A stretch of DNA of 64,000 bases from Favolaschia claudopus (Eukaryota; Basidiomycota; Agaricomycetes; Agaricales; Mycenaceae): assembly GCA_037176885.1 (NCBI GenBank), contig JAWWNJ010000006.1, forward strand, positions 1,116,001-1,180,000, in the 5' to 3' direction. The position numbers and the translations under genes are program-made. Below are positions 5,093 to 30,285 of the stretch, in pieces (position 1 is the stretch's first letter; the number at the start of each line of letters is the position of its first letter). Under the pieces are notes generated by a model that was not told where the DNA came from, did no database searches, and was given only the letters and a program-made list of their open reading frames with translations.

Positions 5093-7035
5093 GTAGAGAA
5101 AGATAAAGGCACAGATGTCTTCTTGTTCACGGAATCTGGAAGCCCGGGAAGCCCGAGAAAATCGAACCGTGGAAAGCATGCACCTAATCCGGGTGATAGC
5201 TCGGCTAAGTCTGCGTTTGCCTACATGGAGCGAGATTCCCGCGTGAATGATGATAAAGATAGTTCCGCGGAGGCGGCGGACCGTGCGCCCAAAGTGAACC
5301 GTAGAAAGAGAAAATACAAGAAGAAAAAGAAGAAGAAGAAGTCTAAGAAGACTTCGAAGGCAGAGGGAGCAGAGGCAGTCCTTGCTGCTAGGGGGAAGCT
5401 GAATTTTGAAGTACCGGTGCCGGAAGTACCAAGAGAGCAATTTATTTTTGGAAATTTGGGCATCTCTATGGGAAAACAGCGAGTATTTGCTACTAAGAAG
5501 TACAAACCGGTCGCGGAAAAGATTAAGCCTATCCTTGGAAAAGTGGATGAGAAGTTCAGGATTGTGCGGAATATCACGGGGGATCCTTTGAAGGATATGC
5601 CAAAAATAGAAACAGATATTCCTGAGATTCACCCAGTAGGAAGATATACCGCGGAGCGAATGGAGGCATTTGAAAAGACTCATAACACTGGGTTCTTATT
5701 GCCTGAAGAGATGAAGTTGCTTCATCGTTTTATGATGTTGCATAACGAGCATTTCGCCTGGGAAGAGGATGAGCGAGGGCAATTCAAACATGAATATTTT
5801 CCGCCCGTTGATATGCCTGTGGTACCACATACACCATGGGTATGCTCGCAAATTCCAATTCCACCTGGACATTTTGAAGAGTTCTGCCGCATCATCAAGT
5901 CTAAATTAGATGCTGGGGTGTATGAACCATCCAACTCGTCCTACAGGTCACCTATTTTTGCGGTGATAAAGAAAGATGGAAAGTCATTGAGAATTGTACA
6001 CGCGTTAGAGAGGTTGAATGAGGTTACAATTCAACACTCTGGGGTACCTCCAGCCACGGAGAAGCTAGCAGAACATTTTGCTGGTCGAGCGTGCGGAGCT
6101 TCGTTGGATATGTTTGTCGGATATGATAACAGGGACTTAGCGGAATCCTCAAGGGATTATACGACCTTCCAGACGCCGTTTGGGGCACTGAGGTTAGTAA
6201 AATTACCGATGGGATGGACCAATTCTGTTCCCGTGTTTCACGAGGACGTTTGTACCATCTTGAGAGATGAAATGCCGCATGTAACAATCCCTTACATAGA
6301 CGATGTACCTGTCCGCGGGGGACCTACGAGGTACGAGACAAAAGATGGCGATTGGGAAAGGGTTGCTGCGAATCCTGGAATTAGAAGATTTATCTGGGAA
6401 CATCTTGAGAATTTAAATCGAGTTGTGACTAGAATGGCTTATGCAGGAGGAACTTTTTCAGGGAAGAAGTTGGTCCTCTGTGCGGATGAGTTTGAAGTTG
6501 TAGGGCATATTTGCTCTTACCGCGGAAGAATTCCTGATCCTAAGAGGGTGGACGTTATTAATAACTGGGGTTCCTGTGACTCTTTCACGCAAGTGAAGGC
6601 GTACTTGGGCACGGTTGGTGTTCTGAGGAGCTTTATTGAAGGGTACGGCGACATTGTTGCACCTATCAATGAGTTAACGAAGAAGGACGTTCCCTTTGTA
6701 TGGACCGCGGACTGTGATGAGGCGCAGACCAAAATTAGAGAAAGGTTGAAAAACTGCCCAGCTCTAAAACCCCTGCGGTACGACTGGGATTCGGACATAG
6801 TAATTCAAGTGGATACTTCATGGAGAGCTGTAGGAATTATTATCTACCAGCTAGACCCAGATGATCCTAAGAAGAAATACTTTGCACGATTTGCGAGTAT
6901 AACGTTAGGGAAGACCGAGGCGAACTATTCGCAACCTAAACGAGAATTGTACGGGTTGATGAGAGCTCTAGAGGCCATGTATTATTGGATTTTCGGAGCA
7001 AGGAAGCTTGTGGTTGAAACCGACGCGTTATATAC
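5093..7035 (+). CDS. pol: Ty3/gypsy polyprotein, reverse transcriptase half (element A; 5'-truncated, ends in a frameshift)
   Basis: The frame starts with a basic low-complexity segment (a run of nine lysines) and a linker. The reverse transcriptase domain follows: SYRSPIFAVIKKDGKSLR, the first catalytic Asp in SLDMFVGYD, the LPMGWTNS motif and the YIDD box at about 6295. An RNase H-like segment follows with IQVDTSWRAVG and ending at VETDA. The lineage is the basidiomycete gypsy group with PYIDDVP in the active site. Gag and protease are absent, so the copy is truncated at its 5' end. At about 7025-7036 the frame breaks: the expected continuation (YIKGMLKNP) lies in the next frame, consistent with a single-base change. 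It would have copied element RNA into DNA. It is probably inactive now. Confidence 0.8.
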
Positions 7036-8913
7036 ATCAAGGGCATGTTGAAAAACCCTGGAATGGGCCCCAACGCCACGATTAACCGCTGGATTGAAAA
7101 GATCTTGATGTTCCATTTTAAGCTGAAGCATGTCCCTGGTGAAAAGTTTGCACCCGACGGGTTATCAAGGAGAGATCCTTTCCCTGGGGATGAACAATTC
7201 AAAAATTCGGAAGAGGGTTATGACCAAAATGAACCTCCCGAGGACCATGAGGACGTTTCCGCGGAAGGCCCACAGCCGTTGGAATTCGAGGACTTTAAAC
7301 ACCTTATTGATACCAGAGGTGGATATTTCCAGTCGGAGGAGGAACAGCCAGAGATTGTGGACGTTAATGCAGTTTGCATGGAAGATTTCCAACGTGATTG
7401 CGAGAGTGCCAGAATGACTGAAGCTAATCTGGCAAGAGCACGCAGAGAAGCGTATTCGAAGGAAAATAAGCAGATCTCAGAGTATATTTTAATGACAGAG
7501 CCTCTGATTCCAAATTTAGAATTGAAATGGGATGAGTCGAAGCGAGAGCCTTACGATGAAGAGCATCGTTCAGATTGGATGAAAAAGCGTGATGCTAAAT
7601 TACCATTGGTAAAGGAATGGCTAGCGGACCCTTTGACTAGGCCCGCGGGAATGAATGATGAGGCAGAGTATAGAAGTTTTATGCGCTTCGCCTCACATTT
7701 CTTTTTGAAAGGGGGGAGGATGTATAAGAAATCTTTTGGCACTGCGAATCAATTAGTTGTTGACAAGGAACACCGCATGTACATGATGAAGGCTGCTCAC
7801 GACAGTCTGGGTCACCGCGGAAGTTATGCAACTAGAGAGTTGATTACGCTGCGATTCTGGTGGCCAGGAATAGAAGCAGATGTATTTTGGTACATTGCGT
7901 CTTGTGACGCTTGCCAAAACCGACAACATACACTGTTGAAGGTCCCGCCAGTTTTGACCCATACTCCAAGTCTATTTCAGGTCATCCATACCGATGTAAT
8001 GGTAATGGGGCAAGTGTCCAATAAATGTGGACTAGTTGTTGATGCGAGGGACTCTTTGAGTTCTTGGTTAGAAGCGAGACCGCTTGTGAGAGACACGGCT
8101 CACGCAATTGGAATATTCCTATTTGAAGAAATTATTTGCCGTTGGGGTTGCCCAAAGCAGATTGTAACGGATAATGCGGGGCAGTTCAAGAAAGCTGTGG
8201 AATGGTTGAAACAGAAATACGGAATACCAAATATTCAGATTTCACCATACAACTCTCAAGCGAACGGGAAGATTGAAAGTGGACACTTCCAAATGCGTCA
8301 GGCATTGTTCAAAGCGACTGGCAAGAACCCATCTAAATGGTTCTGGTTCTTCCATGTTATGCTTTGGTCAGACAGAGTAACGGTTAGAAAAGGATTAGGT
8401 TGTTCACCTTATTTTGCGGCGACTGGAGCGCATCCAATTCTACCATTGGATATTGAGGAAGCTACTTGGTTGGTTGAAATACCAGGTCGAGTGTTGACGA
8501 CCGCGGAACTGATAGGGCTAAGAGCCAGAGCTTTAGCAAAGCATGTTGCCCATGTGGAACACATGAGGAAGCGTGTAGATCATGCTAAAATGGTTCAAGT
8601 CCGTAAACTCGAACGGTACAATGAACATATGATTAAAAACTATGATTTCAAACCGGGAGATCTGGTTCTCGTGCGCCATACTGAAGTAGAGAAATCTCCT
8701 ATTCCCGCGGAAGGGGAAAAGACAAAGGAGCGCAGCTCAAAGAAGATAAAGGATCTAGCCTTCGATAAAGTAAATATAAGGGTAACACCTGAAGACTTCG
8801 AAAAGGCTGAGTCCTCAGAATCGGAGACTGGGAACGATGATGATGAAGCAGAGTCGGACGATGAGCCAAAAGAGTCGGTTGGTCCTAGACGGTCCAAACG
8901 CAGGAAGCATTAA
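7030..8913 (+). CDS. pol: Ty3/gypsy polyprotein, RNase H end and integrase half (element A)
   Basis: This continues the preceding frame after the 1-nt break. It opens with YIKGMLKNP, NRWIEKI and the HVPG..F.PDGLSRR segment that closes the RNase H/connection region. An acidic linker follows, then an HHCC integrase zinc finger (AAHDSLGHRG followed by SCDACQ). The integrase catalytic core comes next, with D in VIHTDV, D in IVTDNAG and E in NGKIESGHF. The C-terminal tail is acidic then basic (RRSKRRKH) and no chromodomain is seen, unlike elements D and E. The stop is at 8911-8913. An antisense gene follows 56 bases later, tail to tail. Confidence 0.8.
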   Translation: MYIKGMLKNPGMGPNATINRWIEKILMFHFKLKHVPGEKFAPDGLSRRDPFPGDEQFKNSEEGYDQNEPPEDHEDVSAEGPQPLEFEDFKHLIDTRGGYFQSEEEQPEIVDVNAVCMEDFQRDCESARMTEANLARARREAYSKENKQISEYILMTEPLIPNLELKWDESKREPYDEEHRSDWMKKRDAKLPLVKEWLADPLTRPAGMNDEAEYRSFMRFASHFFLKGGRMYKKSFGTANQLVVDKEHRMYMMKAAHDSLGHRGSYATRELITLRFWWPGIEADVFWYIASCDACQNRQHTLLKVPPVLTHTPSLFQVIHTDVMVMGQVSNKCGLVVDARDSLSSWLEARPLVRDTAHAIGIFLFEEIICRWGCPKQIVTDNAGQFKKAVEWLKQKYGIPNIQISPYNSQANGKIESGHFQMRQALFKATGKNPSKWFWFFHVMLWSDRVTVRKGLGCSPYFAATGAHPILPLDIEEATWLVEIPGRVLTTAELIGLRARALAKHVAHVEHMRKRVDHAKMVQVRKLERYNEHMIKNYDFKPGDLVLVRHTEVEKSPIPAEGEKTKERSSKKIKDLAFDKVNIRVTPEDFEKAESSESETGNDDDEAESDDEPKESVGPRRSKRRKH

Positions 8914-8969
8914 AGATTGTGGTGGTATGCGCCTCTGTAATCTTAAATTAGAACTTCTCCGCGGAAGGA

Positions 8970-9713
8970 TTAAAATGGGAGATCGTACTTGTCAGGCGAT
9001 TCGACGGAGTGAATGGAGATGCCAGGAGGAAGGAGCTTGGACATACGAAGCTCGACGAAGCCGAGAGCGGAGTTGTCGTAGCCGTGAAGGATGAGTTCCT
9101 TGCGCATATAGGCGAGTTCATGAAGATCATCGATCTTGTTGACCGCTTTGATGAACTGGGCCTTGCGAGCCTTGATGGAAAACTCATGGTGGTAGGCGAA
9201 AGCTTCGTCAAGCTGGTTAAGCATGGTCTCCAGGTCGACGGTGCTGCGACCGAAGATGATAGCTGAAGGGGAGGATTAGCGAGGAATAAGTCTGGAAATC
9301 TATAAATGGACGCACCAGGACCTCCGCGCTTTCCCCAACTTTCAATCATCTTGTCCTTGCTGGTGAAGTCGCAAGGATGGAATTGAATGAGACAGTTGTG
9401 GCAAGGAGGACCCCAACTAGTCGGAGCGCAAGGCTCGATGTTGTGTTTCTTGGCGCAGCAAGAGCACTGTTCAGTCGGCTGGTGATAAAAATAGATCAGT
9501 CGAAGTTGAAAGTACTAAGTACTAAGGACGCACCTTATTATCTTCCATAAGATAGATGGCGGCTTGGAACTTGGGAAGGATCTCGCTGACAGGGACTATG
9601 ATATCGCGTGCGAAGGCTGCGAGGATTGCGGCAGGATCCATTTCGTCGGGGCTGTCGTAGAGATAATCGTAGTAGTCGTCGTTCTCTTCGTCGTCTAAGC
9701 CGTGGATGCTCAT
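8970..9713 (-). CDS. antisense cargo gene of element A with Zn2Cys6-like cluster (A2)
   Basis: Three exons read on the minus strand as one 211-residue product: 9534-9713, 9316-9478 and 8970-9262. The introns are 9479-9533 and 9263-9315, both beginning GTGCGTCC, and all phases agree. Exon 1 is acidic. Exon 2 carries cysteines spaced C-x2-C-x8-C-x8-C-x2-C-x6-C, which resembles a fungal Zn2Cys6 binuclear cluster with a long second loop, though the usual basic residues between cysteines are few. Exon 3 is a charged helical region that could dimerise. The gene is tail-to-tail with pol and shares splice-site style and cluster with the gene at 27122-29082. A TATTTAAA box lies about 50 bases upstream of the ATG. 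Function is unknown. DNA or RNA binding is inferred. Confidence 0.6.
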
Positions 9714-10298
9714 GCAAAGAGAAAAGAATATTATGGGAGAAGACGTTCCTATGAGGCACTGTTTAAATAGTAAACACTGCTGAGGAGATGACTTGCCTGT
9801 GATTATTTGAATCAGATTTTGTATTGATCATAAGCGGGACGGAGGAAAGTAAAGGAGTGAGACTTGAAGTCTAGGCTTGCCGAGACTTAGAGGCGCAAAA
9901 TATCCAGTGGAATAAGGACTTTAAGGAGCATGTAGGCGGTCACGGCAATGGTGTCGTTCACAAAACGGCTTCCGCGGCGGCTTGAAGTACTTGAGAAGTT
10001 GAAGTAGAACTGGACGATTGGAGTTCTATTTTTGGAATTCTGAGCGCGGAAAAAGAGTCTTACCACTCCTGAGATGTCCAAGATACTGCGGGAAATCGGA
10101 CGAAGTTGGCTTGACAAAACAATTGTATTGCAAGCACTGCTAAGTATATACGAGACACCCGGGGATTTGGACAGTTGCTGGTTGAACAGCAAATATGTGC
10201 GGTTGAACGCACGACGATACGATAGGGAACACTGAGAGTCGACGGTTTATGTGTCTAAAGAGCGAAGGCACATAGGTATATAGGCCGCGGAAGGACGA
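9714..10298. other. spacer between antisense genes A1 and A2
   Basis: It contains a TATTTAAA promoter-like box near 9762, upstream of A2, and two CCGCGG copies. The minus strand has an open stretch (9887-10192) with a GTAAGA..CAAG intron-like interval inside it. I could not assemble this into a convincing exon. It may be 5' untranslated sequence of A2 or a missed terminal exon of A1. Confidence 0.35.
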
Positions 10299-11503
10299 TC
10301 AAGTCTAGAAGGCGGAAAGGTTTATCTGGAGAGCTATAAAAATAAACGCAGAAACATACCGCGGAACTAGCAGGGCGCATAATGGGATCCTCGTTGTCGG
10401 CGTGATGGATCTTCATGAGCTGCTCGAGCTGGTCATCCATCTCCTCGTAGGCGCGAAGCCAGTAGCGATACTTGAAGGAAGCGGCGGCCATGTTGCGGCG
10501 GAGGTAGCGCTCCCGAGCCTTGAAACCTTGCGCGTCCAAGTGCTTGAGTTGGTTCTGAGAAACCTTCCAGGTCTTGTTGACATCGTCCGAATGCATGATG
10601 GCGATGAGGTCCTTGTCCATGGTGTCTATAATAAAATTTAGACGAAATTAGATCAAGGAGAAGATGAACTCGTACCAGGGACTTTGGGCTCGTAGTCGAG
10701 GTCGACGTCATCCGGTTCGGTACGGGCACGCTTGTTGCTGCGGTTGGACACAGGGTTCAACGACAAAGCAGGCTATGAGCGAGAATTAAGCAGAGAAACA
10801 GAGTTGACGAATATTTCACGCACCATAAGTGGTTCCGCGGGCGCCATCTACAACAATTGATGAACGTTAAGCGAGAATTCAACCGTGGGATATGGGTTAC
10901 GTACCTTCTCGTCCTCGTCAGGACAAGTGGAAGAAGTGTCGGAGTTCTTCGCCTTGGGGCCTTTGCCCTAATAAAAACGATGTTATAAAAATAGAACAAA
11001 GTGAAAAGGCGAACGCACAGGAACTTTACGAACATTTTTGAACATGTCCTCTGGAACGGGATCGTCAATGATGCGCACGGATTTGCCGTCGTCTTGAGGG
11101 GCCTTACCGGCAGGGATACCGTCCTTGGGTTTGACAGGGCAGTTGTCCTGGCCGTGCTGGTGAGAAGAGCAAGACGAACAAACGGAAATCTGGGTGAATG
11201 AAGAGGAAAGTGCAGAGGGATAAAAATAGACGCACAGTGTCGTTCTTGACCTTGAGAGCACTATTCTTCTGGAAGGAGAGACCAGGGGGCAAAGAGGAGC
11301 CTCCTGCGCGATAGTTGGCTCCCATGGCAGCGATATAGAGAGGGTTGATTCTACCTTCGTCCTTGTCGAGATCCATCTGGAGTTGGTTAATACCATAGAT
11401 AATCTTCGTAACGTCTGAGGAATACCTGATCAGCGACGGAAGCTTCCTCCGCGGAGTCGTCGTCCCCGGAATCGTCGATGACTTCAACAGACTTACCCTG
11501 CAT
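10299..11503 (-). CDS. antisense multi-exon cargo gene of element A (A1), unknown function
   Basis: The start MQGKSVEVIDD is at 11503 and the end PASSAT-stop at 10299, with about seven short introns. Several begin GTGCGT or GTACGT, and one reads GTGCGTCTATTTTTAT at 11236 downward. Splicing joins KNDT to ISVCSSC in phase. The product has a half zinc-finger-like C-x2-C-x9-C, two copies of a GKSV-x-x-IDD motif, a nuclear-type basic patch (NKRARTEPDD) and a helical, aromatic-rich region (MDKDLIAIMHSDDVNK onward) near the C-terminus. I do not recognise a family. It is arranged head-to-tail with A2, both opposite to pol. Exon borders are my reading and one or two may be wrong. Confidence 0.5.
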
Positions 11504-11910
11504 TATAGAGGACAGTTCAGGACCAGGCAGCTCATATACTCATGATAATGCAATATAACCCGGGGTAACCCGCAGGCTTAATGCATTATCTTCAGGGGAA
11601 GCCCTGGGTACAGTAAGTGCTTACATACACAGTCTCCCGGCAGTTTCGGCATCAAAGACTTTGATGTTTGATGCAGCATATCACTGCCGTCGGACCTTTA
11701 AATGTGACGGCCGTGGGAATTTGCCTAAACAGGTTTGTGCCGGGGACGAAAAAATGCATTTTGGGATGCATTTTGGCCCATTTTGCCGGGGGTTTGGGAT
11801 GGTAGTATAGTAGCAATAGTATATCTTAGTTCCACACAATTCTTACATACTGTCAGTGCGAATGGACGGCTTCCCAGCGCTTTTGATGGGAAACCAATAC
11901 CCCTGCCGTT
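11504..11910. other. intergenic, right edge of element A
   Basis: There are no genes. GATAATGCA at 11544-11552 pairs with TGCATTATC at 11582-11590, a 9-bp inverted repeat around a CCCGGGGTAACCCG-rich loop. A direct repeat ATGCATTTTGGG occurs twice near 11754. No LTR is recognised, so the right end of element A is undefined. Confidence 0.35.
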
Positions 11911-14654
11911 TTATTCCTCCTCGGCCATATCCGCCTCAGCGTCAGCCTCCATCTCATCCAGCTCCTCTTGTGACAGCTCTAATCCACCCACAGACCTTCT
12001 TTTGTCCCCCTCACTCTGTGAATCGCGATCCAAAATATTTCCCGGTATTTCCGGATTGGGATTGGGCTGTCCGCTGGTACGGGTTGGGGGTTGGATACCA
12101 GTTGGGGGCGGAGTTGTGGGTGGCGAGGGTCGTTTACCGTCCAGTACAGCGCTAGTTGAAAGGTTATTGAACGCAGGAGAAGAGAAACAAAAGAGAATAC
12201 TTACCGTTCCATTGATGACAGTGCCCACGTTACGTCATTCACGGCGTCTTCCCAATTTGGCGACGCGTCGCTCATCGCGTCGCGCCACCATTTCAGCGCC
12301 ATCAACACATTTAGAAAACCATTGTGCCCATACAGATCGAGGGGATCCCATCCAGCTTCCGCACCTACATCGCGGCTCATCGGACGCTCGCTACCCCCGC
12401 CACGACGGATTGATATCAATCCACCAGGCCCACCACGTTTCCCCAAACGACTCTGCGTTTGCAATCTTCGGTTTGTGGTTTCGTGCTCTTCCTACCCAAT
12501 CCCCAACTTCCTTCGGCCGTTTTTTAGCTGGATGACTCTTATTACCCTGGCTTCCAGGTTAGCTGTCAAGGTTGACGGCGGCAATCGACAATTCTTTACT
12601 CACGGTACCCACGAATCCGACTCTTTCCTCTCTCTTCCACCACACCGCCAACAGTGTACCCCATGTATCCCCGTACTCAGCCTGCGTCAAGAACGCCTGC
12701 GCGGTTCTCAAGATCTCAATTGACGCCGATGTTGCTTGTGAAGACTTCTTCGGCCGTGACACCGTCTCCTTGGCCGTCGACGTCGCTGTTACCCCCCTCC
12801 TCCTCTTCACTTCCTTTCCCCTCCTCGTCGTCTTCTTCCGGCTCTTCTTCCTCTGATTCCAGCACTGGGTCTTTGCGTTTTCGGCGCCGCTTGCCATCCT
12901 CTCGGCCGTCGTCTTTCGGCGCCTTTCGTTTTGGCGCAGATGCGTCTGCCTTCGAGCCGCCCCACAAGGTCTCTTTCTCGGCGTCTCCCAGCCCCAGGGC
13001 ATTCAGCATATATCTATTGCGCACACTGTTGTTCTCGCGCTCCAACGCCGAGGCGTCCAATTTCTGGAGTTCTGCCATTCTCATAAGCCGCGCCTCTCCC
13101 ACCATGGAATCCAGCTGTAGCTTCAGCTCTGCGCCGAGCGGAGCGGCAAACTCGGGCATGCTGGGCTCAACGGGCTCAAAGCCATTGAGCACCAACGGAT
13201 TCACGGCCAGACCAGGCATCAAATCTGGCGGAAAGTCGAATTCATCGAAATCCGCCGGTAGACCCAAGTGCGCGCGTATTTCGGCGTCGCTGAATGTATC
13301 GGAGGGCATGGCAGCCGGTGCAGACGCCATATGATCCGTGGTGAGTGACTCTGGCATCGCGTTGCTCGGCGCTACCTGCGCGGGAGGTGTGGTGACGATC
13401 TGCGGAGCCGCTGCAGTACCGTCAGCTGAGCTAGCACCCCGCTCTGCGATAGGCGGTGTGGTCGTTGGTGCGTCACCGGTCGCGGGTATTGCTGGATCCG
13501 GGGTCGACGTGGCTCGTCCCAGTCGGAATTCGTCTACAAACGCACATCTCAGTACTAATGCATTTCTAATTTTAATAAAAGACCTTACTCGCATTCCACA
13601 CGAACTTACTGAAGCTTCGCATGACGTCTGCGTACACCCGCGGGTCTGCCTTGGAGAAATCAAGCGCCGGTGGTGTTATCGATGACACGCCCGCATGCAA
13701 GCTACACATTCGTCGTCAGAAACACAAGAATTCAGGGCTAACTAACATGAGAAGCAACTCACCTCACACATTCAATATCTAATTTCCCCTCGTTCTTCTT
13801 CACGCGCCCCGCCAGGATAGATACCTCATATCCAGTATGAACTGCTAGCCCATCCAACAACGGCTGAATCAAAGCCGAGAAGCGAGTTCGAGCTCTGCCG
13901 TGTACGTTTAGCTCGGAACTGTAAGAGGTTTCACAAACACCTACTCCTCCAATCCCTCCTCATCGAGGGCTGGGAGACCGTCGAGTGCATCCTGATGTCT
14001 AGCCAGCAGCTCCGCATGCTCGTCTACCGCCCCTTGATGAATCTCGTCCCGTACTTCTTGCGGCTCCTTCGCTAGCAGCTCGCGAGCGATGGTGGCGCGA
14101 AGATTCATCAGCTGAGTCCCAGGTACGTCGACTTTCCTCGTTTCGAATTCCGCCGTAATCAAGTCCTTATAGGGTTTCTGCTGCATATAGTATTGATAGT
14201 CCGCCAGCCTTTTGGGCGCCGACGTGCTTGGCGTGCGGAATCGTCTCAACCACTCCCCCCATGGGTTTTCTTTCATGCTCGCCGCCTTGCTCTGGCGTCC
14301 TAACCACAATTTGATCTTCTTTTCGCAGCTCAGAATGCTATCTCAGAACAGCAATGAATATAGTCTCACCTGTTCCGTGCTTGAAATAGTTGTTGTCTGC
14401 AGAGCTTCCTCATCTGGATTCTGAGGCTTCAGCGCGTAATCCGTCGGGTCGTTGGCATTGGGGTCTTGTGTTAACGGCAGCCGCCAGGGAAACGCCGCCC
14501 AATAACTCTTGAAAAACTCGGTCCATATTCCCCGCGTCTTCCCGCGCTGCGACGCGTCGGCGTACGTTGGGTAGAAGGTCAGAAGAAACTCCAAGTGTTT
14601 GCCTTGAAAGTCGCTGGGTTTTCCCGGTTTTTTCTTTGTTTTTACTGTTGCCAT
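11911..14654 (-). CDS. conserved mushroom hypothetical protein, module gene M1, copy I
   Basis: The start is ATG at 14654 (MATVKTKKKPGKPSD). Exon blocks run to 11911, the last joined by a GTAAGT..CTAG intron near 12147-12200 that links SSMER to AVLDGKRP. The N-terminal block (SDFQGKHLEFLLTFYPTY), a central block (LLDGLAVHTGYEVSILAG), an acidic and basic linker with KRRRKRK, and a C-terminal block (GFLNVLMALKWW) each align with the gene at 48771-51088. It is therefore a diverged paralogue. Reading frame changes near 14343-14372 and 12715-12790 are not fully explained by introns I can define, so either small exons were missed or the copy is decaying. No domain name is known to me. It is divergently paired with M3 at 14731. 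Confidence 0.55.
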
Positions 14655-14730
14655 TCTGAGACGATTTGTATGGGGTGATACACTAGAGGGCGTGACTCGT
14701 GTACACCCGTTACTCTCATCACAGACAATC
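14655..14730. promoter_or_regulatory. divergent promoter between M1 and M3, copy I
   Basis: Only 76 bases separate the two start codons, which point away from each other, so both genes must share regulatory DNA here. No TATA box is obvious. Confidence 0.45.
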
Positions 14731-15332: not shown

Positions 15333-15466
15333 ATTCTTGTCGATTCAATATTGCGCTCATGTCATTAAATCATCAATAATTGTTTTTTCACTGCCGCATT
15401 CATGAAAACGTCGCGATGAGTTCCAGAAGATTACGAGTTGTACAGTGTGAAACATTATACAACAAA

Positions 15467-19240: not shown

Positions 19241-19587
19241 GTACCGTGTCGTCACCTTGACGAAAGCGCGTCCTTGGATCGGTTGACTTCGCAAATCGAT
19301 TCAATAACCTTTTCATATGCATTTACAGACACCTCAGAAATTACCTTATCCTTTGTTTAATGTATACATTAAGCACAGTTTAGCTTGAATCAAGTTTTTC
19401 TTCCCCTTCGCTGCACTTTCGCGTTCAGAAAAGTAAGGAAATGGCCCGGCGCTTGAATAGGACCTCAAGTCCTAATTAAGCGCCTGATCAGCGCATCAGT
19501 CCGATCCGACCTCCTCCTTCTCGTCTGGTCTTTCCTCCTCTTTGGCTTCATTTCTATTTATTCTCGACTTATTTATTGCCTTGAACA
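19241..19587. other. upstream region of KDZ copy 2
   Basis: No gene. A pyrimidine-rich stretch (near 19500-19560) with TATTTATT runs up to the ATG at 19588, which fits a fungal core promoter. Confidence 0.4.
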
Positions 19588-22500
19588 ATGGCCTCGCAAT
19601 CTTTCCGTGCTAAGAAGAGGAGAGCCGAGTCTGCTGCTGCTTCAAGAGCATCTCCATCGACGCTTATCTTTGGCGTCGCAGACCTCATCACGCCGCCGGA
19701 GTCTACTCCAATCTCCAGCTTCGTGGACCGTGTTTCGGGCGACGGGCGCTCCATACAACGGGAGGCTATACCTCTCAACCCTCCATCACCCCTCAAAAGA
19801 GCACGGCTCGCGACTTCATCGACTTCATCCCTCCCTGATGCTCCGCCGGCCCAGACAGACCAGGAGGATCAAGACCGTTATGACATGACCCAGCTTAACG
19901 ACGACGACTACGACGACCCTCCCATAATTCCCCTACCTCGCATTCCAAACCCTAAACGTTTGGAGCCCTCGGTGAGTTGTCCGAGCACTTGTGTTATAAA
20001 GGGAAACTGAAATTTCCGTGTCGACAGGATAAGTCGATGAATCGGTGGATGCGCCTCTTGCGGGACATCTATCTGGTCCAACTACTGCGTAGGGATGGGT
20101 GCGGGGACGCAAGCTCAACTGAATGCCCGCATTGCAGCAGCCCAGCAGCAAGACCGCAATTTCGCTGCCAAGAATGCGCTGGGGGGCTTCTACTTTGCGA
20201 GGAGTGTTGCAAGGAGGTTCATGCCGAGCATCCGCTACATGTAATCGAGGTACGGACGCCAACACTGCTGTTGTAGCATGAAACTAACTTTGATAGGAAT
20301 GGAATGGCATCTATTTTTCCAAGACGTCACTCAAGAACATCGGCTTTCGCGTGCAACTCGGACATCCCCCTCGGCAGAAGTGCCCGCGCCCCCTTGCGGG
20401 CTACTCTGACTTTGTCGTCGTTCACGACAACGGCATTCACTGCGTCAACCTCGACTTCTGCGGCTGCGACGCCGAAACTCGGGCAGAGCCATATGTGCAG
20501 CTTCTCCGCGCTGGATGGTACCCGGCCACTGACGAGCGGCCTCAAACTGCCGTGACGTTGATTGCACTCGACAAATTCCATCTTCTAACGCTCCAAGCCA
20601 AAATCACGGCTTACGACTACTATACGGTGCTGGAGCGCCTCACCGACAACACCGGCATAAAGCCCCCCGACCGTTATCAAATCTTCTTGCGAGTGGCGCG
20701 ACAATATCGCCACGCTCTCATGCTCAAGCGTGCTGGACGGGGACACGATCCATCCGGAGTTTGGGGGACAGGTGCTGGCGAATTAGCCGTCGTCTGCCCT
20801 GTTTGTCCTGATCCCAAGGTTAATCTACCAGACGGTTGGGAGAACGCTCCGCAGGAGGATCAGTATGTCTCCCTCATTTTCCCAGTATAGCGGCTGACAT
20901 CCTTTAGATTCTTATATGTTTTATTCCTGGCGCTGGACGCCTGCTTCCGTCTCAAGCGGCGGATGATCTCGAGCGAGATCAAAGACCCCGGGCTCGGTAC
21001 AGGGTGGGCTTATGTGACGGAGAACGCACCATATCGACATTACTTGCTGACTGTAACGGATCAGAAGGAGGTAATTATTCGGAAGTTGTGGCGAGGAAAT
21101 ACTCCTGATTCCTTTGAGCAGATGAGCACATGTAGCGGCCTGGCTGCTCTAGATTACGCAAATACGAAATACTCGCGAGGTTATAGTACAACGGGGGTGG
21201 GAATGGGTGTCTGCGCGAGGCACGAATTTGTGCAGCGGAACGGAGTCGGGGATTTACAGAAAGGAGAAAGGTAACGAGTCTATTGTTTCTGCTTGATCTC
21301 ACACTCATTCAAGTCAGATTCGCAAATATGGATTATATTTTTGGATCAATTCTTCGCCATTTGGACGCACGACTACGCAAGATTGTATCATATGACATCG
21401 TATGCCAATGGTGGAAGTATCTAATGGAGCGCATGAAGAAACTTCCACCTCTGGTGCGCGTCACGATGATCTTGGCGCTGTTTAGATTCGTCATTCCAAA
21501 AATGCACATCCACGCGCATACCTTGGAATGTCAAGTCAAATTTTCCTTGAATCTGGTGCCGGGGAGTGGACAGACGGACGGAGAGGGGATAGAAAGACCT
21601 TGGGCTAACATCGGCGCAATCGCAAGCAGCACGCGAGTTAGTGGTCCAGGCGCGCGTCATGACTCGTTGGATGACCACTGGAATTTTTGGAACTGGCTCA
21701 AGCTGATTGGTCTGCGTGCGTCGTTTTCGTAGAAACCCGTTGATCTCGCTGAATGATTTTGATAGCGTCAATCTTGCGTCGACGTCTCGATGCGGCCAAG
21801 AAAGAAGCTGCTGCCCAGCGCGAGGCATTTGAGGCCTTCACGCTACAGCAGGCTGAGCGCGTCCCAGCATGGAAACAAATGGTCGAAGAGTTTGAGAGGG
21901 ACTCGACGAAGAAGAACCCGTATGAGACCAAAATCACCGGTAAGGAGATAGCTTACCAAGATGTTTCATCTGACGGTTGCCAGGCTTGACCGAGATGGAG
22001 GTTCGTCTCCAGTTTGCGAAGGAAGAGGAGGAAGAGGCCAAACGAGGTTTGGGTGCCCTCCACGAGGTCTCTCCCAGCGGCTTCATTGCAGCAGGTCTGG
22101 AACTCGAAGACCAGCAGTGAGTCCTTCATCCTGAATCAAATGACTTTGTATGTTGATCAGTTTGCTAGGCGACGAGTTCGGGTGCAGGCGGAACTGAAGA
22201 AGACCGGCACCACAGCACAACAGATCAACATGAAGGACTTACGCGCCAAACTCAATCGTGGTATCAATCGGTTCCGGAAATTGCAAGCCACGTATACACC
22301 CGCGGCCATCCAAGCCCTAGCGCGACGCACACCTTCGGAGGAAGAATTGGCCGAGGATGTCCCTCTTATGCTGCCTTCCAGTTTGTCGGCAACGGAACGG
22401 GGGGACGGGGGTTGCGTGAGAGGAGTGGTAGAAGTGGAGAGTCAGCTGCGCTCGGCGCAATGCCGCACCGCGCTTCCCCGTCTGCGTAACCAACTACACA

Positions 22501-23416
22501 TGAAGTCGCGACTGCTACTCTACAAGAAAAACAATGCACGGCATCAAGGAATGAACACTCGCTCGCGAACGATCGTCGCCCGCAACGAAAGTAAAATCCG
22601 GCTGCATTCAGAGAAGTTTCAAATGGCCTGGGAGGCTCGCTTACGGCTTGTGAATGGTGACGCGTCGAAGGTCGGGTGGCCGCGGTTAAAGAAGGAGGAT
22701 ATCAGATGTATGCAGGACGCTGAACAGGTTTCTCGCGACGCAGAGAAGCGACGGAAGGCTACCGAGCGGCGGTTAGTTAGGGAGGATGAGATGAGGGACG
22801 ATGGTCTGCTGCCCCCCCTCACCGAGGAAGAGGAAATGGTGACAAGGGGTGGGGAGAATATGAGGGAGATTGCTTGGATTTGGACGATGGCGGGGACGGC
22901 GGGAACGGACGAAGAATTGGAAGATGGTGTGTATAAAATCTGATTTACACATGACGAGATCTTCTAACTAGCTTTCCAGCCTTGCGTATTGAGTGGTCAA
23001 AGGCGTGGGCACGAAGCCGGCGCTGGACCGAGGAGGTGCGCCTTCTAGAAGAGGAGTGGCGCCGGCTCCCCATCTCGTACGCGCATCGCGAGGCGGCGTG
23101 GGTGGAGCGCGCTGTCGCCGTGCCTTTAGAAACCACCCCGGCTGCTGAGGCAGAAGGCAAGATTGCGTATGCTGCTAAGCAAGCTCAACTGTACCGTGAC
23201 CTGGCGGAAAGAGCGGAGGCGAAGCGCACCGAGCCGAGGCTGGCGAAGGGTAAAAAGCGGCAGGTGTGGCAAGCTAGCTGGGACCCGGTGATATCGGCGG
23301 AGAACATTGAGGGCGGCGGTGAGAGTGCCAGCGAAGGGGACGAGGCCGAGGATGAGCGTGGGGACATTGAAAGCGATGAAGAATTGCTGATGGGGGGCGA
23401 AGTGGACGAGGATTGA
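19588..23416 (+). CDS. KDZ-family transposase, copy 2, apparently complete
   Basis: About ten exons, with introns including 19972-20027, 20250-20296, 20863-20907, 21070-21120 and 21271-21317, all in phase. The product has a disordered N-terminus, then the CxC2 cluster (CPHC, RCQEC, CEEC, histidine, PLHVIEEWNG), the FCGCDAE and GWYPATDE motifs, and the KDZ core: D in LALDACFRLK (near 20939), GMGVCARHEF, D in SYDIVCQWW (near 21390) and E in DGEGIERPWA (near 21580). A long Arg/Glu-rich helical C-terminus ends EVDED-stop. Compared with copy 1 it matches the family consensus more closely and has no disruption that I can find. It is a different subfamily member and not a recent duplicate. It would cut and paste its own element. 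The termini were not identified. Confidence 0.87.
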
Positions 23417-23871
23417 GGCTTTCGGTAGTGTTTTTGTAGCAGTCGGGTTCTTCCGAATTGTGACAGCTGTCGAATCTGGCGATCAACGAAAGCTGTCAAA
23501 GGCTGTGTGGGAAGCATCGTGTATTTTTTCGTCCATTTAAATGCTTTTTGCGGGGTTTTTTTTGTGATGCGGCAGGAGTGCCGTCTGACAGAGTGATGTG
23601 GGTGAGCTGCCGAGGTGGTGGAGTGTGCCGAGGCAGCGGCATAGGTATTTCCTATGATTCCACATACACCCGGGCATGCCCGTGGTGTTCCGAGGTTCTA
23701 TATATGGACTCCCGCAAGATAACGCGTTTGATGGGCAGGTTCTCCCCGGGATCAAACACGTTATCTTGGGCTTATAAGGTGGACCAGGAGGCATGCGACG
23801 AACACGAGAAAGCACCTGTTGAACTTGAGCCTTAGCACGGTGGCCCTTGATGGCTGCCGCGGCCTTGTCGC
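23417..23871. other. spacer with a long hairpin, left of element B
   Basis: The minus strand has an open frame from 23840 downward (KAQVQQVLSRVRRMPPG) that reads like protein but is cut by the LTR start, so it may be an exon interrupted by element B. A near-perfect 18-bp inverted repeat lies at 23715-23732 and 23751-23768. Nothing else is assignable. Confidence 0.35.
23715..23768. repeat. 18-bp inverted repeat, hairpin
   Basis: CAAGATAACGCGTTTGAT pairs with ATCAAACACGTTATCTTG (17 of 18 positions) across an 18-base GC-rich loop. Confidence 0.7.
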
Positions 23872-24246
23872 TGTAACGACTGGCCATTTTTGCGCGTTAT
23901 ATCTGGCTATTTTAAGTCAAGTGCGGCCCTAAACAACCCAACTACCCGCCACGACTATAGTCTTACTCGACTATCAATAGGAAGTCAGTACCTCTGTTGG
24001 TGACACTAAGGAGGGTCAAAGTGAGCTCCGAGCTGTTGACCGTAAAACCCATCACAGGAGAAAGGCATTATATTAATAGCCTACTGCAGTACTATGGATC
24101 TGTTCCATAACAGAACCCTCAGAAGAGTGACGAAGAGTCAAGTACTTGTGTACTACGGACTTAGACAAAGGTCTGCAAGGATGTAGGAGGCGCCGCGGGG
24201 GCTATCAGAGTCAACATCAGTCAAAAGACAGATGCCGCGGGCTGCC
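23872..24246 (+). repeat. LTR of element B, left copy (matching part)
   Basis: Starts TGTAACGACTGG. It is the same length as the right copy, differing by C/T near 24052 and G/A near 24175. It is followed by CTATAAATAGACGG, a likely TATA box at 24249-24257, so the full LTR is probably longer. Confidence 0.8.
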
Positions 24247-25638
24247 GACTATAAATAGACGGCTGGAACAGCGGAAAGGGATCTCATACAGGAGATGCCG
24301 GTGCTAGGATCAGAAGGCAGAGTTATGGCAAGACATGAGGTCTTTGACAGGAGAGTTGATGATGTGATGCTGAAGCCGAACAAGTGCGGCAACTTCATTA
24401 GAAATCTATTTCTATATTGGAGTCAGCGCGGATGACTTGGTGGCTTGATAAATTGGACAACAGACGAGCCTGTGATATTGCGAGTGAATTGGAATGTCCC
24501 AAGAATAGTCTTAGGAGTTATTAGAGGCGTTGATAGCACCACCGGAAGGGTTGCCGCCAGTGACGGATTGACGGGATCACCAATGATGGCGTTCCGCGGG
24601 CTTCCGCCATTCAGTGATTCAACCGTGAGAGTCATAATGGCTGACTTTCTACCGTTGGATCGACAAGCCAAGAGGCTGCCGAAGGTCCGCCGGGACACCC
24701 AAATACCAATATACCATCTCTCTACTCAATTGGATCGACATTGCTTACTCTGTACTATTTATGTGATGTATTTCTTGGCATTAGTATAAAAGGACCTGTA
24801 TTTCTCGTTGAGCTGGAGGACATCGCGCTCAGTCTATTGGACAGCGTTGGTGAACTCAGGCAGCAACGTAGAGGCATATAAAAAGATATTGTCTACTCGT
24901 TTGTCTTAATAGAAATTGTGTTGAAGTTCAGTTCAAGTGTGAATCTAAGCATTGTTTCGAGAGTGTTCACCTGCGGAGGCTTTGCATTCGAGTAGCTTTG
25001 TCGTGGCCTTAGTGTGCAAGGAACTGCCTGCCTCTACTGCCCGCGGACTGTCTATTTCGTTGTAAGGATACGTGTGCTCGAGAGTGAACTAGTATCTCCC
25101 TGAGTCTGAGGAAGAGTGGAACTGTCCATCTGCTGAAGCATTGCGTTGGAACTGCTGGCGCATAACCGGAAGAGATCTGATTAGTCCTCGTCTGAAAGGC
25201 TTGTGCTATATAAAGGAGTGTCAAAGGTTCCTGGAATTTGGAGGTTCAGGTCTATAGCGTAACTGGCGCTATAAGAATTGTGCATTCTGCCGCGGAAACT
25301 GTCTGTGGCCATTGTTTCAATCTCGCCCTGATATTCAACTTCGTTGGGTATCTTGTATCCTACTGTTTTATAGTTCCTATTTTTAGGAAAGGTCCGCGGA
25401 CGGAATCACTTCCATCTACGGTGTGTGAGAGCGTGTTTTGTGCAAGGTCCTTACTTGCAAGTCGACTTATATCCTCGTCACTGTGACATCTGGATTTCGG
25501 ATCGAACCCCACGAACTCTTCGAGAGACATTTGAGTGTATCTTGTGGAGATATTTGTGTTGTAGTGTTGTGTGTGTTGGTTGATTGTGTTATATATATAT
25601 TTTGGTGGTAGATTCTCTGCTGCGCTATATTTAGCACT
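24247..25638. other. non-coding left part of element B
   Basis: There is no long frame. It contains three TATA-like stretches (24249 CTATAAATAG, 24785 TATAAAAGG, 25207 TATATAAAGG) and several CCGCGG copies. It probably includes the remainder of the LTR and the leader. A stretch near 25490 (TGGATTTCGGATCGAACC) looks tRNA-complementary but does not fit normal primer-site geometry. Confidence 0.4.
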
Positions 25639-26061
25639 TCAGTTGATATATTCAAGTGTCAGCGTTACATCGCGCTTGCTATTCTTGGCGTTGTGGTAGT
25701 TGTTGAGCATGCGGTCGATAGCGCCAAGCTGGGAAGTAGGGATCTTGAACTTGGAGATCTTGTACTCGTCCCTCATAGCGTTGGAGGCGGCAGTAAGAGC
25801 ATTGACGACCTTCTCGTTGGAGGGGTGCTGAAGGGACTGAGCGAACAGTTTGAAGTCCGACTAAAAATAGACAGAGTTAGCGCGGAAAGCGTTTTGGGCA
25901 TGCAAAAAATATGGACGAACCGCCGCGGCTGCGAACGTGCTGAGCGTAGAGTGAATGACAGCCGCAGGGAGAGAGTCTCTGAGGGCGAGGACCCGTTGAA
26001 AGTCGCGTTCAGCTTCAAGGATAAGGTTGGACGCTTCGATGAGCGCAGAGCGTGGTGCCAT
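25639..26061 (-). CDS. small antisense cargo gene of element B (B2)
   Basis: Two exons, 25921-26061 and 25639-25860, are separated by a 60-nt intron (GTTCGTCC..GTCTATTTTTAG), both in phase 0. They give a 120-residue helical protein starting MAPRSALIEASNLILEAE and ending LTLEYIN. The family is unknown. Its intron style matches that of the antisense genes in element A, and it lies downstream of B1 on the same strand. It is intact and has no cysteines or membrane segments. Confidence 0.5.
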
Positions 26062-27121
26062 GGCATGCGATGAAGGCCTGTAGGCGACGAAGAAATGAGC
26101 AGAGAACAGAAGTCAATTTATAGTTTTGACTAGGAGAGCTTGGTTAAATTATTAACGACCGGCTACGATCGTAAAGACGAGCCAAGGCTGTTGGTTGCAC
26201 CTCTAACTGAATTGAATATGCGAGGACGCATCTTTTTTCTTTAGTGAGGGGGAGAATATAGAGCAACAGACAACCGCGGGAGGGTATTGCGCCACCGCGG
26301 GCCTTGCAAATTTACCCATAAAGAGACAGGGAAATTTCGTTTTGCTAAAATTAGACGATTTTGAGCTAGAGCGTTGCAAAAGCCAAGTTGCGGAAGAGTT
26401 TTAAGGCTGAATAATGTCGATCGGTTCCTATATGATCGATTTTATGAGGCAGTTAGGGATGATAGTGGGTATTCTATTAAGCAAGAGACTTGTAGAATAC
26501 ACAGGCGGGAGTACAGAACTCTACCTTGAGTACCCACCGCGGTACTTACAGGAAAGAGAGTTGGACTGTGCTAAAAATAGACCCGCGGAAAACTGAAAGA
26601 GAAGAGTTGACTAAAGGAAACTTTTTGACGACTTGAAGAAAAAGTGTCAATTAAGTGTCAAGTGTGACTTCTGATTGAAGTACAGGAGAAATTGGACTGA
26701 TTCCAATAAAGTTGAAGAAAGATTTTGACGACGGACTTGGTCAAAATTCAGCCTTCGGCAATCTCCGAAGGATTGATGACGGCATGATGGCCGGTTGATG
26801 TTGACTTGGTGGATTTCTTTAAGACTAAAATTCTTACAAAGGATTCACACGGTTGAATCAGAACATCAATAGGCGCCAGTGGGCGCTAGTATACATTTGA
26901 ACTCAAGTAGTATGGTTTACAGACAAGGTAAACTAAAAGCTAATACTACTGAGTGAGATATGTAAGAAAGTTGTTTTTTTTGAGTTGGTCTACGCTACGG
27001 CTGGAGACAACAGCACTACAGGAAAAATATCTTCGAGAGTTTAAAGACTAGAAGAGGATAGTCTGGATACATGCGACAGTAGATTTTAGCAAATAAAAAT
27101 CGAGAGCAGCAGGCCGAGCGT
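26062..27121. other. non-coding spacer of element B
   Basis: AT-rich, with four CCGCGG copies and one TAAAAATAGACCCGCGG composite at 26570. Short frames only. I see no gene. Confidence 0.4.
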
Positions 27122-29082
27122 TCACCCGCGGTCCACCTTCTTGCCCTTATCCACAGGAGTCTTCTCCGTACCCTTCCCTTTGCGTTGAGCTGAAGAGGTC
27201 GGAGGGCGCGCCTTTGACGAGCTGGGAGCAGGAGTCTCCAACAAAGGGGCAGGTCCGAAAGCAACCGCCGGCGTAGCAGGAGCCGCGGTTGGTTGGCCGG
27301 AGACGTCGTCTTGGAAGAGGAAGCGACGGGTGTCGACGAAGGTCCCGCGGAGGTCAAGTCGTCGAAAGAGGAGGTGGGCCGTACTTTGGGATCCATAGTC
27401 TCGAGGACGCCCTTGAGTTCCAAGTCAGGGATAAGACGGTTGGAGAATTTCGGGTGATAGACGTGCTCGGTGACTGCCCCAGACTCGTCCGTCACTGGGA
27501 TGGCGCTGGAGGTGGCTTCGTGCGCAACGAAGTCCTGTTCTAACTCGTAGAAAGACTTCTTGGACATAACGTGCGCTACGAACTCCCGTACGAGATCCGA
27601 TCCCTCTTTATCCTCGAAGAAGTCGTCAAACTGTTCAGCAGCAAGCAAACGTTCGGCGCCGGAGATCGTCAGGGCAGTATCCTGAGCCTGCAGACGAAGG
27701 TTGTTGATCGCGCGAGCGTGGGCGAAGCCGGTAAACTGAGCGTCCTCGTAAGCTTGGACGAGCCGCTGGAGGGACGCGGCAATGGTGTGTGGTGCAACCG
27801 CAATGAAGGGGCGCATACACTCGACGAAGTGTTTGAAGGTAGCCGGCGTCCAGTTGAACGAACATTTATGTTTATAATGTGCGCAGCGGACGCACACGGA
27901 GGAACGGCCCCCGACGGGTCGGCATTCAGCGTAGTTGAGAACGCAGTTCAAGCAAGGAAAAGCGACCTTGGAAAGCAAGGGAGGGACCAACGAGCTCTGT
28001 ACATAAGAAGTAGGAATTTTCATCTGCGCGGGAGCAGGAAGACCTAGAGTTGGAAGGATAAGAGTTAGTAAAAAGAAAAGTTTGATACAAGAGAACGTAC
28101 CAGTCTCGGGAATATCAAAGAGCAATTGAAGAAGCTCAGCGCGAGTGGATATCGAAATAGACGGCTCCGCCGGCGTGGCGGACCGCTCAGAAATGGGCGC
28201 AGGCGTTGGAGTACGTTCAGGCGTTGGAGTGCGTTCTGGAGATGGGGTGCGATCCTGGCGCTGCCGTTTAGCTGGAGGTTTTTCGTCTTCAGAGTCCTCG
28301 CTCTCCGAAAACATAGCGGCGGGAGCGGTGCGCTTGGGCACAGCGACGATGCACGGAATGCAGAAGTCGCCCCCGAAATGCTTTGCCTTTGGATCCGCGG
28401 CGATGATAGCGTCCTGGACCTCCGCAGAAGGGCGTAGATCGCGGTAAATAGGGATAAGTTCGGCGGCGGCAGCAGGAGGAACTTCCTGGGCGATGTGGCG
28501 GATGACGTTGGAGAGAGCCCAAAGAAAGGCTTCGACATTGAGAGGCAGGTTGGGATTGTCGCGACGATAAGGCACCTAGGAAAGGTGGATCGTTAGTCAG
28601 AAACATGAAAAGATAGAAAAGTTAGAAAGACGCACGAGGGCAGGAGTCAACAAGGCCAGACTACGGATTTGGTCGACCGTCGGAGACGGCGGTTTGTGGA
28701 CAAAAAGCGGTACAAGATCGCGGGCTGAAGCGTTGTCGAAAGGAGCCCAAAAAGCGGCGGAAGGATCGTCTGATGGAATCTTAGGCGGTGGAAGAATTGA
28801 CGCGGTGCGCGCAGGCTTGCTGGGGCCAGCGACGGGTGTCATAGCCTTGACGGGCTTGGGAAGCGCTTTGGGCTTGGGTCTGGGAGGCGGCGACGGAGTC
28901 TGAGACGGAGACGCTGGGTCCTCTGGTTCTGGAGTACCAGGCTCGACGTCTTTGGGCAGAACTACTGAGTCGCGGCCAGGGCCAACCCTAGCCTTGGTGA
29001 CGCGCTTGCGTTTCGCCACGGTGGTGCTGGTCTTGCGGGTGGAACGGCGAGTGGGTTCGGCGGTGCCTTTCTTAACGGGCAT
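27122..29082 (-). CDS. antisense cargo gene of element B with Zn2Cys6-pattern cluster (B1)
   Basis: The start is MPVKKGTAEP at 29082 (an in-frame ATG also exists at 29100). The introns are 28576-28635 (GTGCGTCT..CTAG) and 57 nt near 28046-28102 (GTACGT..CTAG), both in phase. Exon 1 is basic and Pro-rich. Exon 2 has a helical block and a T-P-x-P-E-R-T-P repeat. Exon 3 has the cysteine pattern C-x2-C-x6-C-x9-C-x2-C-x6-C near 27860-27960, an exact match in spacing to a fungal Zn2Cys6 cluster but placed mid-protein and with few basic residues. Helical, possibly coiled-coil sequence follows. Near 27290 the natural tail (KGKGTEKTPVDKGKKVDRG-stop at 27122) lies in another frame, so a one-base change or an unseen intron is present. 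A regulatory or Gag-like role is open. Confidence 0.6.
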
Positions 29083-29898
29083 ATGTCCGGCGACGAGCAC
29101 CAGAGGGAGGTGATTGTTGTGGATGAAAGAGTAAAAGAGAATCCAAGGAGTGGGCTACTCGGCGACGTAGGCGTCGAGGAGCGCGTCGAAGGGCCAGAGG
29201 GATAACCAAGAAGATAGCCACAGGGTGTAAAACACTGTGTGTGGTGGTGGTGGAAGGAAGGAAGAAGTGGGCGCTAAGAGACACACCCACTCAGTCTATA
29301 AGTCAGCGCGGACTTAGAGAAATTTTCTCTAAGTCGCCACGCCTTCAAGAGGACTGAATTAAATGATCAGTGACTCACTTTGAAAGAAGAACAGAAGACG
29401 GAAGTTAATCTGGCGCGCAGCCGCAGTAATTAGAAGCCAAGATTAAGGTTTGATGAAAACCTAGGGCGGAGGCGGCCGCGGCAAATGATAAGTCGGAGGT
29501 ACAGATTAGATAAAGCGAAAGTGCAAACGCACTTAGGATTAGGGTTGGCGAAGTCCAGGACGGCGAAAATTTGACCGAGTCGAAAAATATAAGGAAAAGA
29601 GGTGAAAAACCCCTGTCCGAATATTTCAGACAGAAAGTGTCAATGACGTCATATGCCGTAATGATTGGCGTCCGCGGAAGCAACTGTCTAAATTAACAGA
29701 CGGAACGTCTTAGCGAGTAGTGCAGGAGGACTTGACTAAAAACAAGTCGCTCGAGGAAAAAGGGACAGAAAAGTAGTTTGCAGTTGGTCTAAAAATAGAC
29801 GTCCGCGGGAGTTGTCATCCTTGCGGTCCACTAGATTTAAAGCCAAAAATAAGCACGGATTTTGGTGCAGGCTATAGACCGGGGACGGTCTAGATTTA
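29083..29898. other. non-coding, upstream of B1 to the polypurine tract
   Basis: Contains the likely promoter of B1 (read leftward) and three CCGCGG copies, one next to TCTAAAAATAGACG at 29789. No gene. Confidence 0.4.
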
Positions 29899-29910
29899 GT
29901 GAAGGGGAGA
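29899..29910 (+). other. polypurine tract of element B
   Basis: GTGAAGGGGAGA immediately before the TGTAACG start of the right LTR, the position where plus-strand DNA synthesis is primed in Ty3-type elements. Confidence 0.65.
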
Positions 29911-30285
29911 TGTAACGACTGGCCATTTTTGCGCGTTATATCTGGCTATTTTAAGTCAAGTGCGGCCCTAAACAACCCAACTACCCGCCACGACTATAGT
30001 CTTACTCGACTATCAATAGGAAGTCAGTACCTCTGTTGGTGACACTAAGGAGGGTCAAAGTGAGCTCCGAGCTGTTGACCGTAAAACCCATTACAGGAGA
30101 AAGGCATTATATTAATAGCCTACTGCAGTACTATGGATCTGTTCCATAACAGAACCCTCAGAAGAGTGACGAAGAGTCAAGTACTTGTGTACTACGGACT
30201 TAGACAAAGGTCTACAAGGATGTAGGAGGCGCCGCGGGGGCTATCAGAGTCAACATCAGTCAAAAGACAGATGCCGCGGGCTGCC
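29911..30285 (+). repeat. LTR of element B, right copy, truncated
   Basis: Matches 23872-24246 with two transitions. The match ends at CGGGCTGCC, where region C starts (ACATGTAAG). Confidence 0.8.

Follow-up and report, generated by a model that had tools for sequence, protein, structure and literature searches.

A CCGCGG hexamer dispersed over a gypsy-type retroelement family of Favolaschia claudopus: a possible address for a DNA-binding protein

We analyzed a window of 64,000 nucleotides spanning C6:1116001-1180000, on contig JAWWNJ010000006.1 of the 264.6-Mb assembly of the wood-rotting mushroom Favolaschia claudopus, in which pieces of a gypsy-type retroelement of roughly 18 kb are densely dotted with the hexamer CCGCGG. 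Whole copies of this family show the order long terminal repeat (LTR), gag, pol, the antisense spliced genes A2, A3 and B1, and LTR. The LTRs measure about 1.8 kb, and the gag-like frame contains a CCHC knuckle and has no Pfam match. Three copies were followed end to end (C130, C24 and C12b, the last composed of L069 and L070), a fourth (L071) is an 8-kb piece only, and at least 105 places in the genome carry B1. C130, C12b and the window copy constitute subfamily F1, C24 and L071 subfamily F2. The LTR pairs of the three whole copies are 99.93, 100 and 100% identical over 1488, 1449 and 1594 bp, and these copies are therefore recent insertions. In C12b, aspartyl protease, RT_RNaseH and Integrase_H2C2 were matched in this order above the Pfam cut-offs, RVT_1 (20.8 bits, cut-off 29.6) and the DDE core (21.7, cut-off 27) below them; the LTR pair and the order protease, reverse transcriptase (RT), RNase H, integrase place the family with Ty3/gypsy elements. 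It is not a chromovirus by its domains, as the pol frame of C12b (1482 amino acids, aa) gave no Chromo match in Pfam at E<=1. The published genome of F. claudopus comprises 265 Mb with 86.8% duplicated BUSCO genes (PMC10905254); some element copies therefore probably represent the two alleles of one insertion, and the copies cannot all be counted as independent events.

The original prediction had treated the CCGCGG-rich DNA of the window as two elements, A and B. Both are pieces of one old copy, broken by two large inserts and a solo LTR, and 6 of the 20 CCGCGG assigned to B lie in the later solo-LTR insertion. Two separate elements are ruled out by the junctions and by the uninterrupted site in C12b: piece 1 ends in ...GACAGTTCAGGACCAGG (11520-11527 being GGACCAGG), 12,253 foreign bases follow, and the element resumes with GGACCAGGAGGCATGCG from 23781, while C12b holds the corresponding site intact. 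The solo LTR is flanked by TCGC at 23867-23870 and 25671-25674 and is missing from C12b. Outside the window, about 11 kb to its left, L072 supplies the 5' half of this copy, with 97.4% identity over 307 bp to C12b 5254-5560; its last bases are GGGCAGGT, from which the copy continues in the window at 5087. Judging from the distance, the 5' LTR probably starts at C6:1099464. The antisense frames that had been pointed out at 8970-9713 and 27122-29082 are indeed present as spliced reading frames, with exon borders taken from GT..AG splice signals. The pol of the window copy is broken into two frames (to 7051; from 7045) and, relative to C12b, is missing some 230 bp around 8698. The features of the window are as follows.

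5087..11527, plus strand: piece 1 (rest of pol, A2, part of A3); 16 CCGCGG; 97.6-98.6% identical to C12b; starts with GGGCAGGT (5087-5094) and ends with GGACCAGG
5087..8913, plus strand: RT, RNase H and integrase region; Pfam RT_RNaseH, RT_RNaseH_2 and Integrase_H2C2 above cut-off, RVT_1 and DDE below
8970..9713, minus strand: A2, spliced gene with GT..AG exon borders; C-x2-C-x8-C-x8-C-x2-C-x6-C
10380..11527, minus strand: A3, 3' part; CCHC-type knuckle C-x2-C-x4-H-x4-C
11528..23780, no strand: 12,253-bp insert with 8-bp duplication GGACCAGG; no Pfam match in the five open reading frames (ORFs) tried
23781..23870, minus strand: piece 2, short A3 stretch
23871..25670, plus strand: solo LTR of the same family, TGTAACG...CGTTACA; 4-bp duplication TCGC; 6 CCGCGG
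25671..29910, plus strand: piece 3, with the A3 5' part and B1 (both antisense) and the region before the 3' LTR
26471..29270, no strand: variable B1 cassette, from identity profiles against C130 and C12b; 6 CCGCGG (2.14/kb)
27122..29082, minus strand: B1, spliced gene with Zn2Cys6-type cysteine spacing; last part in another frame here
29911..30285, plus strand: 3' LTR, first part, cut off at 30285
32945..47161, minus strand: unrelated chromodomain gypsy element, used as control; 3 CCGCGG in 14.2 kb; open frame of 1814 aa ending in RT
55470..63998, minus strand: second chromodomain gypsy element, used as control; 2 CCGCGG in 8.5 kb

The window contains 50 CCGCGG, of which 31 lie in the retroelement pieces, 6 in the solo LTR and 13 elsewhere. 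The excess originally described for A and B was recovered against a dinucleotide expectation, with 16 sites vs 1.0 expected at 5087-11527 and 20 vs 1.3 at 23871-30285; the 49.3 kb outside both blocks (22001-23870 left out) hold 11 vs 15. None of 300 dinucleotide shuffles reached the observed count in 5087-11527, in the solo LTR or in 25671-30285. The 12,253-bp insert serves as an internal negative control (3 sites vs 3.6 in shuffles), and the two chromodomain gypsy elements of the window likewise show no excess. A count across the family, proposed earlier as a check, revealed the enrichment to be a family property: all three whole copies contain 43-45 sites (one LTR counted) vs about 3 expected, or about one per 360 bases, and the loci around A2 contain 4-9 in 30/30 cases and exactly eight in 25/30.

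Genome-wide, CCGCGG occurs at 0.23/kb (60,847 in 264.6 Mb) and the control GGCGCC is commoner (68,711). Ranked by enrichment among hexamers, CCGCGG comes first in five of the six element sequences, namely C130, C24, C12b and the window blocks A and B, and second, after CTCCGC, in L071 (17 vs 2.1 expected). In these sequences, the remaining palindromes made of C and G only occur about as often as expected, and one-mismatch variants are rare (the commonest 9 vs 43-51 for CCGCGG itself). Sites are found in all three gag/pol frames, in the antisense-gene region and in the LTRs, with 20/43 in C12b falling within gag-pol and the highest density in the two LTRs (3.9 and 4.1/kb). T before or A after the hexamer is seen on 48-58% of site sides; in the antisense region, T precedes 7/16 and 6/15 sites and A follows 8/16 and 9/15. 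Even spacing is weak (fraction of random placements equally or more even 0.43, 0.04 and 0.04 in three copies). Apart from CCGCGG, a second repeated word, TAAAAATAGA, is specific to F1 and to the antisense region (C12b 10170-16195, L069/L070; window 26572 and 29790), partly at intron starts; for it, TAAAAATA was counted 10 times vs 0.5 expected in C130.

Next, we compared coding sites between the subfamilies (C12b vs C24). Here, gag has a synonymous divergence (dS) of 1.64 and a nonsynonymous-to-synonymous ratio (dN/dS) of 0.20, pol a dS of 1.99 and a dN/dS of 0.07, and the protease frame is saturated. In aligned codons, 10/19 of the F1 coding CCGCGG are common to F2. At sites with unchanged amino acids, 8/11 F1 sites are common to F2 and 8/9 F2 sites to F1, compared with 31-32% of all control hexamers and 31-35% of GC-rich ones; two sites are common to both despite an amino-acid change. 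Synonymous-codon shuffles of six genes (2,000 rounds each) gave means of 0.39-0.97 and maxima of 3-6 vs 4-12 observed, and never reached the observed number. Since these shuffles fail and 8/11 sites are retained at a dS of about 2, selection holds CCGCGG, and purifying selection appears to keep it across the element. Base composition and codon use as causes of the excess are ruled out by the dinucleotide and synonymous-codon shuffles; the earlier statement that codon use does not suffice, the sites lying in several frames and in non-coding DNA, is thus borne out by frame counts and shuffles alike. Among half-kb bins, 14/33 aligned at >=60%; there, 14/19 CCGCGG are common to F1 and F2 vs 39/92 and 123/641 for controls, and the remaining bins have similar numbers in F1 and F2 (26 and 24, by subtraction, a comparison of numbers).

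In addition, spanning trees were built for 58 partial copies and CpG losses counted on their edges, with 5/816 in CCGCGG and 391/10,412 elsewhere. As losses private to single copies show no such deficit (numbers below), we read this as selection in transposing lineages. Shielding of each single copy from CpG decay was rejected on the same private mutations and on the small difference by columns (3/16 inside CCGCGG vs 65/202). An A/G over C/T bias in all-pairs comparisons (10,737 vs 4,036) was also discarded, being gone on spanning-tree edges (294 vs 300).

Zinc clusters of the Gal4 type (Zn2Cys6) follow the pattern C-x2-C-x6-C-x5..12-C-x2-C-x6..8-C and typically include a basic stretch. The original prediction saw this spacing, or an approach to it, in both antisense proteins. 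For B1 it stands: C-x2-C-x6-C-x8..12-C-x2-C-x6-C fits in 4/4 sequences of three types, and all six cysteines are invariant in six aligned sequences, three of them type I. For A2 it does not, since the x8 first loop breaks the pattern. Little is kept around the B1 cysteines, as the residues between them are not conserved and the alignment shows no Gal4-like basic stretch. Pfam gave no zinc-cluster (Zn_clus) match at E<=1 in the window, L070, L067 and P0001 sequences, the sole match being a domain of unknown function (DUF) at 0.12; there was no PDB match, and the AlphaFold model is unusable (predicted local distance difference test, pLDDT, 34.6). Two protein searches, each scoring about 8,000 candidates, found no relatives outside F. 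claudopus, the source of all five B1 proteins annotated in NCBI.

B1 resides in a cassette that is exchanged on a constant backbone. C12b and C130 are 94-100% identical at 8.0-13.2 kb and 41-54% at 13.4-15.6 kb, with identity rising towards the 3' LTR; C24 and L071 are 79-100% identical and then 51-63% over about 2 kb. The 70 copies with an A2 exon 3 at least 94% identical to that of the window carry B1 of type I (at least 78% identity to window B1) in 37 cases, type III (27-32%) in 19, and none within 3-6 kb in 14. For type I, 25 distinct sequences from 30 loci have a median dN/dS of 0.06 and a maximum of 0.18 (254/300 pairs, dS >0.05); dS rises to 2.2 in some pairs, while the backbone around A2 differs by 1.5%. 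With such a dS at low dN/dS on so similar a backbone, B1 is constrained as a protein, and its variants predate the backbones on which they now sit, which argues for exchange between lineages and long-kept diversity. Each B1 type is under purifying selection, and the types are about 30-40% identical on backbones of 94-100% identity. The cassettes hold 2.14 (window), 1.67 (C12b), 1.60 (C130), 0.50 (C24) and 0.50 (L071) CCGCGG per kb, the rest of the element 2.65-4.1/kb; the densities of the first three are above chance or nearly so, that of C24 is not.

Taken together, the excess and the selection suggest a factor that recognizes the element by CCGCGG. Our tentative explanation, to which we assign a probability of roughly 0.35, is that the hexamer is a dispersed address for a DNA-binding protein setting the chromatin or transcription of the family, with a reader encoded by the constant element backbone and A2 as its first candidate. 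CCGCGG, often preceded by T or followed by A, would be the recognition site, repeated in the LTRs, in gag and pol and in the antisense genes of an active family; a sequence-specific protein would bind the palindrome and mark all family copies as one target, and once bound would set their chromatin state or transcription. Since CCGCGG is constant while B1 varies, a constant reader is called for, which argues against B1. A2 is a possible reader, and is placed first as both subfamilies sharing CCGCGG possess it. It is nearly uniform in F1, its F1 and F2 forms are 46% identical with the cysteine pattern kept, and 70/81 among the genome matches listed for its exon 3 are at 94-99% identity. On the sequence data, A2 or a host factor fits better than B1, which would probably be a separately selected, exchangeable specificity module; that the cassette swaps is observed, and a role of B1 in specificity or immunity may follow.

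Several results weigh against this explanation. The cysteine spacing of A2 is the same in F1 and F2 and is not that of a Zn2Cys6 cluster; its pieces have no Pfam match at E<=1, and a protein search with 147 candidates found no homologue and none outside F. claudopus. Private CpG losses show no deficit in CCGCGG (3/673 vs 30/5,639 outside; private variants are few). In gag/pol, the flanks are one-sided, with A after CCGCGG at 16/20 and 15/20 sites and T before at 6/20 and 9/20, which is probably a codon effect and also leaves room for a role in RNA.

A reading in which a host regulatory factor, e.g. of Zn2Cys6 or CpG-binding type, opens or protects CCGCGG-dense chromatin, the element having gathered sites to borrow it, is somewhat unlikely and deserves serious consideration. 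It would account for the site density of the LTRs and for a hexamer that stays constant while B1 varies, and TCCGCGGA is a known site of yeast host Zn2Cys6 factors (PMC5539612). However, the two chromodomain gypsy elements of the same genome did not gather such sites, and over the whole genome the mirror GGCGCC slightly outnumbers the hexamer. The flank asymmetry of gag/pol, together with sites throughout the transcript and the self-complementarity of the hexamer, would also suit dispersed packaging, pairing or protein-binding signals in genomic RNA. We consider this quite unlikely: the symmetry and the T..A flanks of the antisense region suit a DNA dimer site equally or better, and in its real flanks the hexamer is no more unpaired than in shuffled ones (0.255 vs 0.308 and 0.320 vs 0.344; 36 and 34 sites), a comparison that leaves RNA loops at the hexamer unsupported.

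The idea first proposed, that B1 is a Zn2Cys6 protein which occupies the CCGCGG sites of its own element and so activates the element or prevents its silencing, now appears very unlikely in spite of the invariant cysteines of B1 and the strong purifying selection on it. Forms of B1 down to about 30% identity are exchanged on a constant backbone with a constant motif, and the five cassettes are poorer in CCGCGG than the rest; this lower density and the poor conservation between the cysteines, where no Gal4-like basic stretch occurs, weaken B1 as a candidate reader, and the domain and structure searches described above lend it no help. Most doubtful of all is a service to integration, in which the integrase or a partner would see CpG-rich sites and the hexamer would direct new copies to older ones or, while occupied, prevent self-integration. 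Here, 40 LTR-start flanks of 174 places were sampled (from 100 places listed); three are 3' LTRs and 37 are insertion sites. Integration does prefer CpG, with a 4-bp NCGN duplication at 34/37 sites vs a baseline of 6.8%, C at -3 in 35/37 and G at -2 in 34/37; two of the three exceptions have near-identical flanks and are probably alleles. CCGCGG lies within 150 bp upstream of 4/37 insertions, three of which end exactly in the hexamer (2e-4 given CpG), and the solo LTR of the window, whose TCGC fits NCGN, sits 8 bp from a CCGCGG of its own family. However, only 1/37 sampled insertions hit the own family, not near CCGCGG, and the element shows no enrichment of further CpG-rich palindromes.

The window also holds traces of other events. 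Two large inserts (12.25 kb; about 16.3 kb, left of 5087) with GC-rich 8-bp duplications, GGACCAGG and GGGCAGGT, lie in one copy; KDZ would be a putative name for them, and 0/6 ORFs tried in or beside them had a Pfam match. Within the 12-kb insert, 16643-16785 is a fragment 89-92% identical to the LTR start and adjoins an inverted-repeat pair (15689-17444).

Among the closest known systems are the VANDAL transposons of Arabidopsis with their anti-silencing VANC proteins. According to the account consulted, VANC21 binds YAGTATTAY in non-coding VANDAL21 DNA, exons being without the motif, and targets differ between related VANCs (PMC5735166). In both systems, a mobile element has an accessory gene and carries a short motif in many copies, by which the family stands apart from other elements of its genome; CCGCGG, like a VANC motif, is scattered along the element and is enriched nowhere else. 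However, CCGCGG is palindromic and also lies in coding DNA, it is constant over B1 types whereas VANC protein and motif change together, and VANDAL is a DNA transposon whereas the F. claudopus family is a retroelement. Plant gypsy elements of the Retand, Grande and RIRE2 groups carry antisense ORFs between pol and the 3' LTR (PMC7264820, PMC11963269); the antisense genes of F. claudopus differ by having no TRP28 or further Pfam match, and spliced cysteine-cluster genes, a dispersed hexamer and a swapping cassette are absent from those accounts as far as consulted. In yeast, TCCGCGGA is the consensus of the pleiotropic drug resistance (PDR) element bound by the Zn2Cys6 factors Pdr1/Pdr3 (PMC5539612). 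Its core and flanks equal the commonest element sites, but few sites in host promoters are set against tens over a mobile element.

Stoperators of Cluster A mycobacteriophages are dispersed repressor sites (PMC6550527), and they resemble the present case in having many sites for one protein over a mobile genome and variable immunity determinants. They differ, in the same source, by being phage-borne and asymmetric and by varying with the repressor, whereas here the site is constant and B1 variable. A palindromic address read by the element's own antisense-coded protein, with B1 diversified by selection for rarity, would make a retroelement system of self/non-self recognition comparable to such phage immunity modules, a rather unlikely prospect at present. 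In the sources consulted, a literature search found no published description of this combination of CCGCGG and antisense genes in a retroelement.

Altogether, these sequences point to a family that is young and present in many copies, and in which selection keeps one site of protein-binding type in coding and non-coding DNA alike. To our knowledge, it is poorly known how fungal transposons evade or direct their silencing. The family brings built-in comparisons to this question, namely two subfamilies with saturated synonymous sites, motif-free chromodomain elements, and copies differing mainly in the B1 cassette. Two further features merit study in their own right, namely the exchange of B1 cassettes while the backbone stays constant and the strictness with which the family integrates at CpG.

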